DNA of 15,564 bases from Planctomycetota bacterium (GTDB taxonomy: Bacteria > Planctomycetota > Phycisphaerae > UBA1845 > UTPLA1): positions 1 through 15,564 of the forward strand of contig JAPULF010000360.1 of NCBI GenBank assembly GCA_027295245.1, given 5' to 3'. Numbering within the stretch: position 1 is the stretch's first letter; the number at the start of each line of letters is the position of its first letter. Positions 8,003 to 15,181 of this stretch are shown piece by piece. Below the pieces are notes generated by a model. The model did not search any database. It was not told where the DNA came from and saw nothing but the letters and a program-made list of their open reading frames with translations. The position numbers and the translations under genes are program-made.

Positions 8003-8059
8003 CCAAGCGCGGGCCTGCGCGGGCCCCTGCGAAGGTGCAGGCCCGCGAAGACCGCTTGG
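8003..8059 (+). other. Strong stem-loop between hflX and the PilZ gene pair
   Basis: CGCGGGCCTGC (8008-8018) pairs perfectly with GCAGGCCCGCG (8037-8047), and CCAAG (8003-8007) pairs with CTTGG (8055-8059) around a 7-nt bulge. The 18-nt loop includes CCCTGC, which could compete for the same GCAGG partner. No T-run follows, so it is either a U-less terminator for hflX or a structured 5' leader of the PilZ operon, ending 29 nt before the start codon. It matches no riboswitch class I know. Confidence 0.5.
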
Positions 8060-8088
8060 CACCGATAATGTGTCCTTGGGGAGACACC

Positions 8089-8793
8089 ATGAAAAACCAC
8101 ACTTGCCTGGATACGGAAGGCTCAAACCGAATCCTCGAAATGGCGATCCGCTCGCAGTCTCAGGCAACGGTTGACACGCCGCTGGCCGACGTGCCGCTGA
8201 ACGGTGCATTGATCGCGGCCGACGGGGAAACCCTCTTGATACGTTTGACCGGCCTGCCGTCTTTCGATCCGGCAGACCTGGTCGGGCGTGAATGCGATGT
8301 GAAGTTGCATGATAGTCAAGCCTATGCGTTTACCTGCACCGTTCACGGTGTTCCTCGATGGGGCCAGTCGATCGCGCTCGCGGTCAGCCGGCCGGAGACG
8401 GTTGAGGTCCTGGAGCGACGCCGACTAGGACGCGCTGCACTGGCTCCGTCTTCCGAAGTGACAATCGAATGGCGCGTTCGAGACGCCGCACACAGCCACG
8501 CAGCGACCCTGCTCAATATCAGCGCGGGCGGACTGGCCTGCCGGATGGATGAAAACGCCGCTCGAGGAATCAACGATGGATCCCGCGTGACGCTTTCGTT
8601 CGAATTGCCGTCGAGCGGTCCGACGTTTCGCCTCTGTGCGATCGTGTCCAACAAGACCCCCGCGAGCGAGGACTGCGTCATTCTGGGAATGGAATTTCTA
8701 CGGTCGCGGGATTCCAAGGCCCAGTTGGAGGCCCTTGGAGAGATAGTCAAGAACCCCAGATGTGCGATGAGCCTCGCGGGAGCGTCCGCATGA
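8089..8793 (+). CDS. PilZ-domain protein, predicted c-di-GMP receptor
   Basis: This 234-residue cytoplasmic protein has a C-terminal PilZ domain. The c-di-GMP binding signature is complete: RRLGR (RxxxR, Arg111-Arg115) followed by NISAGG ([D/N]xSxxG, Asn143, Ser145, Gly148). The domain closes with LGMEFLR near 199-205. The N-terminal part (about 35-100) is a beta-rich region like the flagellar-brake (YcgR-type) N-domain but diverged. ATG 8089 is preferred because GGGGAG lies 5 nt upstream; the longer open frame back to 8035 overlaps the leader stem-loop. The stop overlaps the start of a second PilZ gene by 4 bp, so the two are co-translated. Effector and output are unknown. No diguanylate cyclase or phosphodiesterase is present in the window. 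Confidence 0.85.
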   Translation: MKNHTCLDTEGSNRILEMAIRSQSQATVDTPLADVPLNGALIAADGETLLIRLTGLPSFDPADLVGRECDVKLHDSQAYAFTCTVHGVPRWGQSIALAVSRPETVEVLERRRLGRAALAPSSEVTIEWRVRDAAHSHAATLLNISAGGLACRMDENAARGINDGSRVTLSFELPSSGPTFRLCAIVSNKTPASEDCVILGMEFLRSRDSKAQLEALGEIVKNPRCAMSLAGASA

Positions 8794-9575
8794 GCGTGGA
8801 GGAAACACTCGAATCCAAATCTGATGCGGCGGTGCTCGATTGGGCCGCGGAGCGTAAGGTTCCGGCGACCATCTCAATAAAGAGCGACCAAAACTGGTCC
8901 GTTTTCAAGTCGCATATTCTCAGACACGACGAAGAATCGGGCGTGTTCCAGATTTCCTGTCCGAGCGGCGACGGCGAGGTCCCCATCGAGACTGCCCCCG
9001 GCCAGCAATTGGGAATCTCCTTTCGCCGCGGACACAAGAAGTGCATGTTTACGACTTCGGTCGTGATGCGACGCAGAGAGAATCTGCCGAACCTGGGGGA
9101 AGTCGAAACGGTTGTGTTACGCTGCCCCGACCGCATCCGCGAAGTACAACGCCGGGCCTACCAGCGCGTGACCGTACCGCCTGAAACATTCATCGCAATC
9201 AAACTGTGGGAAGGCGGTGCTCCGTCATCGCATGAGCCCTCCTGGCCCATCTGCTCGGGTCGAGTCGGCAACGCATCGGTCGGCGGCGTCCTTATTGATG
9301 TTCGTGAAGATCAGAACCCGCGGCTGACAATCGGCGATCTGGTCGGCGTGGAGATTACGGCATCGCCCGGAAAGCCGCCGCTGATCGTCGAGGCCCAGTA
9401 TCGCCACTGCGCAATAACCGCGCCCGGCCGCCTCAGTTTGGGATTTCAATTCGTGGGGTTGGAGCACGAATTGCCGGGCCGGGCGTCGCTCTGCGAACTG
9501 ACGGGCTTCGTGCGGGGCCTTCAACGCGACGCCGGTCGCCGGGATCGTTCGGCCGGGAGCATACGGGCGAAGTGA
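8790..9575 (+). CDS. Second PilZ-domain protein with YcgR-like N-domain
   Basis: This 261-residue protein is coupled to the upstream PilZ gene (ATGA overlap at 8790, GGGAG 7 nt before the ATG; an earlier in-frame ATG at 8760 lies inside the upstream gene). Residues about 25-115 look like a YcgR N-domain (FKSHILRHDEESGVFQIS...GQQLGISFRRG). Then comes RRAYQR, which contains RxxxR (Arg122-Arg126) in the linker before the PilZ barrel. NASVGG (Asn161, Ser163, Gly166) completes the c-di-GMP site, and LSLGFQFVGLE (215-225) is the usual last strand. The two proteins have the same architecture but low similarity, which suggests an old duplication. YcgR acts on the flagellar motor in enterobacteria; whether this one does is inference. 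Confidence 0.88.
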   Translation: MSVEETLESKSDAAVLDWAAERKVPATISIKSDQNWSVFKSHILRHDEESGVFQISCPSGDGEVPIETAPGQQLGISFRRGHKKCMFTTSVVMRRRENLPNLGEVETVVLRCPDRIREVQRRAYQRVTVPPETFIAIKLWEGGAPSSHEPSWPICSGRVGNASVGGVLIDVREDQNPRLTIGDLVGVEITASPGKPPLIVEAQYRHCAITAPGRLSLGFQFVGLEHELPGRASLCELTGFVRGLQRDAGRRDRSAGSIRAK

Positions 9576-12808: not shown

Positions 12809-12838
12809 TTGACACCGAAATCTGGGATCAGATAGACT
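12809..12838 (+). promoter_or_regulatory. Sigma70-type promoter for the small-peptide genes
   Basis: TTGACA (12809-12814), an 18-bp spacer and TAGACT (12833-12838) match the consensus at 6/6 and 4/6. The start would be near 12845, at the foot of the next stem-loop, giving a leader of about 158 nt before the first small ORF. Confidence 0.5.
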
Positions 12839-12843
12839 ACGGC

Positions 12844-12884
12844 CCAACTTGGCAGGAAAGGCGTGAGAGCGCTTTCCAAGTTGG
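12844..12884 (+). other. 5'-end stem-loop of the small-peptide leader
   Basis: CCAACTT (12844-12850) pairs with AAGTTGG (12878-12884), and GGAAAG (12855-12860) with CTTTCC (12872-12877). A further CG/CG step closes a 6-nt loop, giving about 15 bp in all. It sits exactly where transcription from the TTGACA promoter would begin, so it may protect the 5' end. The 10-mer GAGCGCTTTC in its 3' arm (12867-12876) recurs at 12915-12924, offering an alternative partner for the 5' arm. Confidence 0.5.
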
Positions 12885-13002
12885 TTCGGAAAATGTACGG
12901 CACGGTTAAGAAACGAGCGCTTTCATCCCGGAGCGACGTTTCAAAGTGGCCGGCTGATTTTTGAGTAGAATATCCGGGAATGTTTAGCGAAAGGGAACCT
13001 AG

Positions 13003-13149
13003 ATGTTGAACGCGATTGTATTTTTCCTCCAGACGATTGCTGAGCTGAGCAGCAACATTATCACCAACCTGATTCCGACTGCTCCGCTGGATTGGCTCTT
13101 TGACCCGATCGACATTCTTATGTCGGCCGCTCTTGCGTTCTTTATTTGA
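13003..13149 (+). CDS. Small hydrophobic acidic peptide 1 (48 aa), novel family
   Basis: ATG 13003 has AGGGA 6 nt upstream. The 48-residue product starts MLNAIVFFLQTIAELSSN, continues with NLIPTAPLDWLFDPIDIL and ends SAALAFFI. It contains no Lys, Arg or His; its charges are Glu14, Asp30, Asp34 and Asp37. Two hydrophobic stretches flank a Pro/Asp/Trp-containing centre, so it should associate with membranes or be an amphipathic helical peptide; there is no classical signal sequence. The best evidence that it is translated is the paralogue at 13311: 19 codons differ synonymously and only 8 change the residue. I do not recognise the family. A short hydrophobic toxin-like or surface-active peptide is possible, but type I toxins usually carry basic residues. 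Confidence 0.8.
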   Translation: MLNAIVFFLQTIAELSSNIITNLIPTAPLDWLFDPIDILMSAALAFFI

Positions 13150-13190
13150 CGCAGCCCAAACGCATCAATCGGCGTCGACGCGAGACAGTT

Positions 13191-13291
13191 GGGAACACGT
13201 TCCGGAACGGCCGCTACGTTCCCGGGGGATCGTTTGGAAGTGTTGCCGCGTGTCATAGAGTCACTTGAGTGTAGTGAAGAGTTTCGGGAAC
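13191..13291 (+). other. Leader of peptide 2 with repeated GGAAC/GTTCC units
   Basis: GGGAAC (13191), the palindrome GTTCCGGAAC (13199-13208), GTTCCCG (13218-13224) and CGGGAAC (13285-13291) crowd this gap between the two paralogous ORFs. GGGAAC can pair with GTTCCC to form a hairpin (13191-13223). Alternatively GTTCCCG can pair with CGGGAAC just ahead of the ribosome binding site, 7 bp plus G-U pairs. The two pairings are mutually exclusive. DNA half-sites for a regulator are an equally good reading. Confidence 0.5.
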
Positions 13292-13310
13292 TTGTTCGAA
13301 AGGAAGACTA

Positions 13311-13454
13311 ATGCTTAATGTGATTCTGTTCTTCGTTCAGACTTTTGCTGAACTGAGCAGCAACATTCTCACCAATCTGATCCCCACGGCGCCGTTGGAC
13401 TGGCTGTTCGACCCGATCGACATCCTGATCTCGGGCGCACTCGCGTTTTCTTGA
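13311..13454 (+). CDS. Small hydrophobic acidic peptide 2 (47 aa), paralogue of peptide 1
   Basis: ATG 13311 follows AAAGGAAG (13299-13306). The product starts MLNVILFFVQTFAELSSN and keeps the centre NLIPTAPLDWLFDPIDIL unchanged, ending SGALAFS. It is identical to peptide 1 at 39 of 47 positions. All replacements except the last (Phe to Ser) exchange one non-polar residue for another. Lys, Arg and His are again absent. The roughly 25 nt before the start are also shared (CGGGAA...CGAAAGG), so gene and leader were duplicated together. A hairpin (13456-13481) and then a textbook terminator follow, so peptides 1 and 2 may share a transcript. Function is unknown. Confidence 0.85.
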   Translation: MLNVILFFVQTFAELSSNILTNLIPTAPLDWLFDPIDILISGALAFS

Positions 13455-13538: not shown

Positions 13539-13573
13539 AAAGGGACACGGACGGCAAGTTCGTGTCCCTTTTT
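13539..13573 (+). terminator. Rho-independent terminator after peptide 2
   Basis: AAAGGGACACG (13539-13549) pairs perfectly with CGTGTCCCTTT (13561-13571) around an 11-nt loop, and the T-run continues to 13573. This is the strongest plus-strand terminator in the window and marks the end of the small-peptide transcript. Confidence 0.92.
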
Positions 13574-13779
13574 CGTCTCTTCTTCACGCCTTCCGATCGA
13601 TGCCGACCCAACACCCCCCTCTGACCGCTAGGGCATTCACGGCGTTCGACGCAGTTTTGGCGCGCCCTGTAGTCTTATGTCCGAAAATTTCTTGCGCGCC
13701 TGAACCCTCAGAGTCGTTTTCCATCTACCCGACTTATCGGACCCTCATGAAGCTAAACTCGCCCCCGGTGCACTGGCGA
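13574..13779. other. Intergenic stretch, no gene supported
   Basis: Between the terminator and the structured leader of peptide 3 I see no ribosome binding site with a credible ORF and no known RNA. A 60-codon open frame (13600-13782) lacks a Shine-Dalgarno sequence and has unlikely composition. CCGACTTATCGG (13729-13740) can form a 4-bp hairpin. Confidence 0.4.
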
Positions 13780-13912
13780 TAAACCCCTGCAGGTCGCCAT
13801 GCCTCACGGGGGGCCTTGGCCGAATCCCGCTCGAGCCGGTCGGAGCGTTCCCGCCGACCTCAGTGGCGACGGGTTTACGGCGATGGAAACGGAACCGAGT
13901 GGCGGGAACGCT
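13780..13912 (+). promoter_or_regulatory. Candidate structured RNA leader (riboswitch-like) of peptide 3
   Basis: TAAACCC (13780-13786) and GTCGCCA (13793-13799), separated by CTGCAG, pair perfectly with TGGCGAC-GGGTTTA (13864-13877), giving a 14-bp closing stem. Inside lie two hairpins. One is CGGG/CCCG (13807-13829) with an inner GGCC-tt-GGCC. The other is GGTCGG/CCGACC (13838-13859), whose 10-nt loop AGCGTTCCCG is fully complementary to CGGGAACGCT (13903-13912), 20 nt before the start codon. A multibranch fold with a loop-to-downstream pseudoknot near the ribosome binding site is typical of ligand-sensing or self-regulating leaders. I cannot match it to a known riboswitch or ribozyme class. 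Confidence 0.55.
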
Positions 13913-13932: not shown

Positions 13933-14040
13933 ATGTTCTGGGATTTTGTCCTCGCGTCCTTGATCGGCCTAATCGACTTGAATCCGTTCCTCGACTTCTT
14001 CCTCACGCCGCTCGCGTGGGTGATCACATTCGCCACCTAG
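13933..14040 (+). CDS. Small hydrophobic acidic peptide 3 (35 aa), possible distant relative
   Basis: ATG 13933 has GAGGTG 5 nt upstream, one of the better ribosome binding sites in the window. The 35-residue product starts MFWDFVLASLIGLIDL and continues NPFLDFFLTPLAWVITFAT. Like peptides 1 and 2 it has no Lys, Arg or His and three Asp. Its FLDFFLTPLAW matches PLDWLFDPIDI of the other two as a pattern: Leu-Asp, aromatic, hydrophobic pair, any residue, Pro, hydrophobic. It shares the CGGGAA box before the ribosome binding site. It may be a membrane helix or amphipathic peptide. With no paralogue to compare, coding status rests on the ribosome binding site, composition and context. Confidence 0.6.
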   Translation: MFWDFVLASLIGLIDLNPFLDFFLTPLAWVITFAT

Positions 14041-14380: not shown

Positions 14381-15181
14381 ATGGCCAAAGTGGAAGTTCG
14401 CGAAGGACTCTGGATGCGCTGCGAGGGTTGCAGCAAGATGATCTTCCGGAAACTGATGGAAGAGCACTTGCACGTGTGTCCGGAATGCTCTCGCCATTAT
14501 CGAATCAGTGCTCCTACGCGAATAGAACACCTTTCTGACACCGGGACGTTTGAGGAATTCAACGCCGATCTTGTTTCCACCGATCCGCTGAAATGGACGG
14601 ACACCAAGTCTTATCGTGAACGCCTCGCGACAACCCAGAAGACGACGGGCCTCAAGGAGGCCGTCTTGACGGGACGGGCCTACATCAAGGGTCGCGCCGT
14701 CATCCTGGCCGTCATGGATCCTTTCTTCGTAATGGGATCGATGGGCGCGGTCGTCGGAGAGAAGATCGCGGCCGCGATCGAGCGGGCCACGGAATTGTCG
14801 TTGCCCATCATCATCGTGACATGCTCCGGGGGTGCCCGCATGCAAGAGGGCTTGATCAGCCTGATGCAGATGGCCAAGACGGCCGCGGCGCTTGCCATCC
14901 ATGACCAGGAAAAGGAGCTTTACATCACGGTCATGACCGATCCGACGACGGCCGGCGTGGCAGCCAGCTATGCATTTCTGGGTGACGTCATTCTCGCCGA
15001 ACCCGGCGCGATGATAGGATTCGCCGGCCCGCGCGTGATTCGCGACACAGTGCAGACGGAGTTGCCCACGAGCTTTCAGACTGCCGAGTTCATGCTCGAG
15101 CACGGCCATATCGACCGAATCGTCGCCCGGAGCGATCTCCGTAGCGAGATAGGCCGGATCATCGATTTCTGTGGCAAGTAA
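14381..15181 (+). CDS. accD: Acetyl-CoA carboxylase carboxyltransferase subunit beta
   Basis: AccD with AccA transfers carboxyl from carboxybiotin-BCCP to acetyl-CoA, making malonyl-CoA for fatty acid synthesis in the cytoplasm. The 266-residue product begins with the bacterial zinc ribbon, MRCEGCSKM...HVCPECSRHY, with ligands Cys14, Cys17, Cys33 and Cys36. The crotonase-like carboxyltransferase core follows: FVMGSMGAVVGEKIA, the CSGGARMQEGLISLMQMAKT motif (acyl-CoA oxyanion site), MTDPTTAGVAASYAFLGD and EPGAMIGFAGPRVI. The end, LPTSFQTAEFMLEHGHIDRIVAR, is diagnostic. It is a little shorter than E. coli AccD (about 304), mainly at both ends. GAGGGTG lies about 9 nt before ATG 14381. accA is not in the window. 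Confidence 0.97.
   Translation: MAKVEVREGLWMRCEGCSKMIFRKLMEEHLHVCPECSRHYRISAPTRIEHLSDTGTFEEFNADLVSTDPLKWTDTKSYRERLATTQKTTGLKEAVLTGRAYIKGRAVILAVMDPFFVMGSMGAVVGEKIAAAIERATELSLPIIIVTCSGGARMQEGLISLMQMAKTAAALAIHDQEKELYITVMTDPTTAGVAASYAFLGDVILAEPGAMIGFAGPRVIRDTVQTELPTSFQTAEFMLEHGHIDRIVARSDLRSEIGRIIDFCGK

Follow-up and report, generated by a model that had tools for sequence, protein, structure and literature searches.

Paired genes for short hydrophobic peptides preceded by long leaders are a known kind of bacterial arrangement. Staphylococcal beta-type phenol-soluble modulins are helical peptides of about 44 aa encoded by tandem genes, and in the cyanobacterial downstream-peptide and glnA RNA motifs a leader RNA lies ahead of a short ORF. 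Membrane type I toxins, such as HokB, TisB, LdrD, IbsC, Fst, ZorO and DinQ, are short, hydrophobic and helical, are sometimes duplicated, and have a long 5' leader (in part after PMC8309996); among the toxins tabulated in that source, the C-termini are positively charged except in IbsC, ShoB and DinQ.

The locus described here resembles each of these systems in part. It shares short, hydrophobic, helical peptides with the type I toxins, but its peptides are acidic, with few or no basic residues, and are predicted to form two helices, and the locus is chromosomally fixed, with neither a conserved antisense promoter nor a convincing Pfam match. Like the modulins, the peptides are short, helical and encoded in tandem, but they belong to Phycisphaerae, have their own conserved leader, and show no evidence of export and no convincing match to Pfam, which presumably holds the staphylococcal phenol-soluble modulin family. 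With the downstream-peptide and glnA motifs the locus has in common a conserved leader 5' of a small-protein gene, but it yields no Rfam match at the gathering score.

A small-peptide gene family upstream of accD

The window, that is, the whole stretch of 15,564 nucleotides analysed (GCA_027295245.1, contig JAPULF010000360.1), comes from a 3.13-Mb draft genome, 75.5% complete, of a planctomycete of the family UTPLA1 (Phycisphaerae, order UBA1845). An initial annotation had proposed two tandem genes for peptides of 48 and 47 aa, separated by 161 bp, and both ORFs were recovered at the same positions (Table 1). Of 47 residues compared, these copies, here termed class A, share 39; 19 of their codons differ silently and 8 by replacement, exactly as first counted. 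The direct repeat spans 137 nt (13003–13139 and 13311–13447, 80%), that is, nearly the whole ORF and little beyond. Direct reading places Shine-Dalgarno-like sequences ahead of both ORFs, as reported (AAAGGG, 12990–12995; AAGGAAG, 13300–13306), and neither peptide contains Lys, Arg or His, again as described, their net charge being -4. The view of the pair as real genes missed by annotation is upheld, but it was too narrow, overlooking a third gene of the window and a conserved leader. This third gene belongs to class B, which was discovered by reading the DNA 5' of accD in other family members, where it mostly forms a tandem pair (consensus MxWDFVIxALIGLIDLNPLLDLIFTPLSWALLFF). Elsewhere in the window, the ORFs at 8035–8793 and 8760–9575, which overlap by 34 bases, encode neighbouring PilZ-domain proteins, the second also giving a sub-threshold YcgR-type N-terminal match.

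Table 1. Features of the peptide locus in the window (positions on the 15,564-nt stretch)
Feature	Position	Strand	Basis and remarks
Promoter-like TTGACA-N18-TAGACT of the class-A pair	12809..12838	+	Motif scan; comparable sites in G003, G009 and G011
Hairpin in the 5' leader of the class-A pair (CCAACTTGG...CCAAGTTGG)	12844..12884	+	Folding of 12838-12987
Arms TCCCGGA (12926-12932) / TCCGGGA (12973-12979), 5' of the copy-1 Shine-Dalgarno sequence	12926..12979	+	7 bp; reached by 11/100 shuffles, alone not significant
Class-A peptide copy 1 (A1), 48 aa	13003..13149	+	ORF call, class-A searches, codon recount
Arms GTTCCCG (13218-13224) / CGGGAAC (13285-13291), 5' of the copy-2 Shine-Dalgarno sequence	13218..13291	+	7 bp; reached by 15/100 shuffles
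Class-A peptide copy 2, 47 aa	13311..13454	+	ORF call, class-A searches, codon recount
Terminator-like inverted repeat and T run, between class-A pair and class-B gene	13539..13571	+	14-nt arms 13539-13552 / 13558-13571
Conserved leader 5' domain (model R1), starting at the -10-like TAAACT	13754..13833	+	Covariance model (window sequence included)
12-bp perfect complementary arms 13844-13855 / 13901-13912, GTTCCC/GGGAAC element of the class-B leader	13844..13912	+	0/100 shuffles reach 12 bp
Class-B peptide, 35 aa, third family gene of the window	13933..14040	+	Profile E 3.7e-19 (own sequence in model); class-B matches in 13 other family genomes
accD, acetyl-CoA carboxylase carboxyltransferase beta subunit	14381..15181	+	PF01039, PF17848; conserved downstream neighbour, outside the peptide unit

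Searches with profiles of the two classes confined the peptides to the window's family. The class-A profile matched 7 of 114 genomes of the order, four of them strongly (G000, G003, G009 and G011, all in the family), which places class-A homologues in three genomes besides that of the window; the remaining three matches (E 0.04–0.06) lie within longer frames. Class-A homologues also form nine protein clusters with 74–94% identity, among which that of P0004 may represent the window's own second copy. The class-B profile matched 14 of 397 genomes of the class, every one in the family, with two or three copies in 12 of the 14 (three in G006, one of them unlinked) and a single copy in G016, at a contig end, and in the window. 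Taken together, every one of the 17 family genomes sampled has peptides of at least one class: four have class A and 14 have class B, the window counting in both groups. The strong matches to either class are free of internal stops. Across a phylum sample of 343 genomes per profile, both profiles matched only the window's own genome, with one chance-like exception, a class-B match (E 0.003) that lies in a 508-aa frame and was judged to be chance. Additional weak matches from a single-sequence search of 101 relatives were likewise rejected (E 0.18–0.95 outside the family and E 0.89 in G009), nearly all lying in frames of more than 100 aa and one in a frame of 74.

In each of the 15 loci that could be read, accD lies downstream of the peptides; G005 and G016 do not enter this count, their peptides and accD being on separate contigs or accD not having been found. 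An endonuclease/exonuclease/phosphatase-family gene precedes the peptides in 12 of the 15 stretches. Scanned over 4 kb, the family loci were passed through a small-ORF filter (ATG, Shine-Dalgarno sequence, hydrophobic, few basic residues), which also admitted one probable chance ORF of 30 aa in L051. A similar filter passed nothing ahead of accD, over at most 1.5 kb, in 16 control loci from outside the family, namely those returned from the accD search (accD being present in 59 of 61 genomes).

The constant position ahead of accD would suit cis-acting leader peptides, that is, small ORFs whose translation controls accD itself. We regard this as improbable, because a gap of roughly 0.2–1.2 kb separates the final class-A or class-B copy from accD, because other ORFs intervene in five loci (one of 166–171 aa in L054 and L058, other small ORFs in three), and because a terminator-like repeat lies 3' of the class-A pair in the window. 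Attenuation, moreover, needs neither conservation of the whole peptide nor its duplication. The repeat itself had been called a terminator, and its 14-nt arms ending in a T run fit that call, although the terminator scan omits it.

Two further sets of sequences were noted at or away from the locus. Immediately 5' of accD in the three class-A genomes other than the window's lie other hydrophobic, K/R-poor ORFs of 45–52 aa with Shine-Dalgarno sequences (L017 8745–8903 and 8959–9114, plus strand; L018 6520–6663, plus strand; L019 8854–8991, minus strand), and aligning them with the class-B peptide did not settle a relationship. The unlinked third class-B copy of G006 (L088, G006:C259:64000-70000; match G006:C259:67023-67118, minus strand) is preceded by an in-frame N-terminal extension, with no TTGACA-TAAACT promoter seen in front.

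Promoters and the conserved leader

The clear promoter of the initial annotation stood in part: the number of sites is at chance (2, against 1.2 expected), but TTGACA recurs at a near-equal distance in the other class-A genomes. It lies 194–216 bases before the first class-A copy in all four (window, G009, G011 and G003, with spacers of 18, 18, 18 and 16 and -10-like sequences TAGACT, TATATT, TAAACT and TAAACT, respectively), and is absent from the third class-A gene of G009. The element TTGACA-N18-TAAACT is present in 13 of 13 class-B loci outside the window, beginning 189–205 bases 5' of copy 1 in 10 of 11 measured loci and 395 bases in L048. A strict pattern of TTGAC, 13–17 bases and TAGCTAAACT gave nine matches in the 17 family genomes, eight of them at the peptide locus; it does not fit the peptide locus of the other nine genomes. 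Ahead of the window's class-B gene (13730–13759), TAAACT is kept at 13754–13759 and TTGACA is lost, perhaps because the class-A pair took over.

Tandem copies behind a long leader are also what a type I toxin-antitoxin system would present, in which membrane toxins are silenced by a structured leader together with an antisense or trans-encoded small RNA. This is the main rival explanation, and we consider it unlikely. A consensus scan for promoters of cis-encoded antitoxins gave minus-strand matches in 2 of 12 class-B loci, which belong to sister genomes, against a plus-strand promoter in place in 10 of the same 12, and in one of five class-A stretches, that of the window; an antitoxin encoded in trans is conceivable. 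The single syntenic place of the peptides in 15 of 15 readable loci is, in addition, unlike a mobile or patchy module.

The 5' domain of the leader was captured in a covariance model, R1, built from 14 class-B sequences. At E <= 0.1, R1 matched 26 of 114 genomes of the order, including all 17 of the family, 16 of these at E <= 4.2e-9. The class-A genomes G003 and G011, left out of the model, were matched at E 1.7e-17 and 5.7e-16, about 110–120 bases 5' of the first class-A gene, and in G009, also left out, two of the three class-A genes are preceded by weak matches (E 0.004 and 0.02). No R1 match lies ahead of the window's copy A1, which is preceded by a different leader with a strong hairpin. 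Comparison of the two protein profiles cannot join the sequences (hhalign probability 5–7% over 8–9 columns), but R1 upstream of class-A genes ties both classes to one locus, where class A has probably diverged from class B or taken its place. Eleven weak R1 hits (E 0.005–0.08; nine in other families, two at unlinked places in G014 and G005) were judged to be chance and dropped, because they have no TTGACA within the 30 bases before them and no filtered small hydrophobic ORF within 900 bases, counted from the start of the match and fewer at stretch ends.

Median pairwise identity over nine class-B loci is 62% for the leader 5' domain, 57% for the rest of the leader, 49–50% for spacers and 69–73% for the ORFs; the stretch between the two copies is at background (49%). 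Closer to the genes, GTTCCC 74–100 bases and GGGAAC 21–31 bases before the start codon occur in 17 of 22 leaders, examined over 200 bases each and with second class-B copies not among them. The exceptions are variants in window A1 (TCCCGGA/TCCGGGA) and L050, and absence in L048 and before the second copies of G003 and G009. For 7 of the 22 leaders, no more than 3 of 100 shuffles yielded a stem as long as the longest one observed. Since the GTTCCC/GGGAAC core is invariant, it cannot show covariation, and the flanks of the helix, with 38 pairs against 31.8 expected, do not differ significantly from chance (1252 of 10000 shuffles reach this number).

Two alternative folds of the 5' domain were compared, and both fit without either being settled. 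Their cells are paired in 81–83% of cases, against 26–50% when the folds are slid; changes on both sides are no more frequent than in the slid versions. Covariation is weak, the best score being reached by 6 of 500 shuffles. Folded singly, six 5' domains gave z from 0.12 to -3.82, and three longer class-B leaders gave -0.34, -1.30 and -1.77, a stability equal to or little above that of shuffles; the class-A leader (12838–12987) gave -2.17, with 4 of 200 shuffles as stable. Rfam returned no match at the gathering score in the window, 11 class-B loci and 5 further loci, and an E-value search of one stretch each gave one chance match in the window (E 2.2) and none in L053. Inspection by eye picks out hairpins that differ in sequence in the interval separating the two peptide genes (L049 7430–7499, L053 7405–7500, L055 7358–7445); in addition, L049 and L057 have a T-rich stretch that might base-pair with the copy-2 Shine-Dalgarno sequence.

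As far as the DNA comparison reaches, these data show that the two classes agree in the spacing of their promoter and that most genomes also keep a conserved leader, which may constitute a candidate new class of leader RNA.

Peptide properties, selection and matched copies

The sampled peptides are 35–49 aa long (class A 47–49, class B 35–39). Class A has 0–2 basic and 1–5 acidic residues (15 sequences) and class B 0–2 and 3–5 (20 sequences), and over all 35 GRAVY ranges from 0.75 to 1.56 and net charge from 0 to -5. From this composition we infer a membrane location. AlphaFold2 predicts two helices for each class, at residues 2–23 and 30–47 in class A (mean pLDDT 82.5) and 2–16 and 18–34 in class B (mean pLDDT 91.5). 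In a Foldseek comparison with the PDB, class A had no match and class B nothing below E 6; the class-B matches above that value include c subunits of ATP synthase, with which the model shares at most a hairpin-like shape (TMq 0.62, E 6.6, not significant), the peptides being about half as long and without a Pfam match.

Being shorter than 60 aa, hydrophobic and helical in both models, the peptides resemble membrane type I toxins as far as these are covered in PMC8309996. Against that reading, they are acidic and mostly without Lys or Arg, and no convincing Pfam match was found.

Helix 1 of class A is amphipathic (moment 0.416, reached by 0.1% of shuffles) and helix 2 of class B weakly so (about 3% of shuffles reach its moment). 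Together with the tandem arrangement of short helical peptides, this would suit products exported after translation and active outside the cell or at its surface, such as a two-peptide bacteriocin, a surfactant of the phenol-soluble-modulin kind or a signal. Several observations make such secretion rather unlikely, somewhat more so than a toxin. No gene for export or modification was recognised next to the peptides, whose immediate neighbours are accD and the endonuclease-family gene, although bacteriocin immunity proteins can be tiny. The peptides are conserved across the whole family rather than variable, they have no convincing Pfam match, and typical bacteriocins are less acidic and less hydrophobic.

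The initial annotation knew of no described family for the pair, and the wider searches agree. At E <= 1, Pfam matched none of the 20 class-B members and one of the 15 class-A members (DUF4444, E 0.18, chance); NCBIfam matched none of 10 proteins, mostly class A, and one of 20 class-B members (a VirB3 model, E 0.17, chance); and PADLOC-DB, again at E <= 1, matched none of the 15 class-A and 20 class-B members, so that no anti-phage defence model was hit. PDB sequences contain no convincing relative of either class: similarities to proteins of the Roco type (Rab family; E 7e-4 to 0.11, positions 13–29 of the profile, no stretch passing alone) and to MB21D2 (E 0.6) were attributed to composition and rejected. 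Among viral contigs, 28 and 53 stretches fit the patterns and none was confirmed. A literature search on small peptides of Phycisphaerae and planctomycetes, planctomycete toxin-antitoxin systems, tandem type I toxins, structured RNAs and phenol-soluble modulins turned up no description of the locus. By the tests of Pfam, NCBIfam, PADLOC, PDB, viral contigs and literature, the class A and B peptides are a new family.

Codon comparison indicates what has been conserved. Between the two class-A copies of the window, the only class-A comparison of this kind, dS is 1.37 and dN 0.089 (NG86, 47 codons), and differences at first, second and third positions number 6, 3 and 21, so that the third-position excess claimed initially is confirmed (21 of 30; one-sided binomial p 4.4e-5). 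Twelve within-genome pairs, compared over a 27-codon core, give 38, 6 and 117 differences, 117 of 161 being at third positions; these pairs are partly non-independent, sister genomes being included, and the L048 pair is identical in DNA. Between genomes, where the comparisons are of class B, dN was below dS in 78 of 78, with dS saturated in 13, and dN/dS near 1 was not seen.

The same codon pattern already contradicts the reading in which the function lies in the RNA and the ORFs are incidental: the leader is conserved, as that reading would have it, but the third-position pattern, dN below dS in 78 of 78 and background identity (49%) between the copies make it extremely improbable.

Within genomes, the copies resemble each other more closely in protein than comparisons between genomes at like dS would suggest, with the caveat that dS from 27 codons is noisy in such short genes. 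At dS 0.8–1.3, dN is 0.034–0.087 within genomes (3 pairs) against a between-genome median of 0.188 (93 comparisons); at dS 1.3–2.0 it is 0–0.034 (2 pairs) against 0.242 (61); and at dS 0.3–0.8 it is 0.017–0.108 (5 pairs) against 0.149 (79), 28% of the between-genome values in this last band being no higher than the highest within-genome value. Two pairs fall outside the bands, L048 (dS 0) and L050 (dS saturated), and the L050 copies, at dN 0.33, do not match each other, contrary to the pattern. Among the close relatives L049/L051 and L058/L086, a peptide is often nearest in protein to its counterpart copy in the sister genome rather than to the other copy of its own genome. Gene conversion could be an alternative source of matched copies, yet dS should then drop too. 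Silent-site drift (dS 0.35–1.9) with a protein nearly constant within the genome, as seen in most genomes, and differing between species points to a pair that must match. At the level of sequence, then, the peptide genes are shown to be conserved family-wide under protein-level purifying selection, and the copies within most genomes to be closer in protein than their silent divergence predicts.

A proposed matched membrane microprotein pair and its meaning

We propose that the locus encodes a co-expressed, matched pair of acidic, hydrophobic, two-helix microproteins that are membrane-associated and whose translation is gated by the leader, a reading that in our judgement could equally well prove right or wrong. 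Transcription would start directly after TAAACT and cover both peptide genes. The leader would fold, GTTCCC and GGGAAC would pair just ahead of the Shine-Dalgarno sequence, and this pairing would modulate how the first peptide is translated. Both peptides would reside in or on the cytoplasmic membrane as hetero- or homo-oligomers, where the pair might alter either some property of the membrane or one of the membrane proteins of this lineage. More tentatively, and with less confidence than in this outline, the locus might specify a lineage-defining, two-part membrane microprotein complex, whose tandem-encoded subunits co-evolve in each species, under a dedicated promoter and a new class of cis-regulatory RNA that senses the state of the membrane or cell and opens the first ribosome site.

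With this locus comes a family of microproteins that has a conserved promoter and leader RNA of its own, occurs in every one of the 17 members sampled from a bacterial family and is matched by none of the annotation libraries searched. A locus kept across an entire bacterial family can still escape family libraries, and this peptide pair offers a natural test of why bacteria retain duplicated micropeptides.
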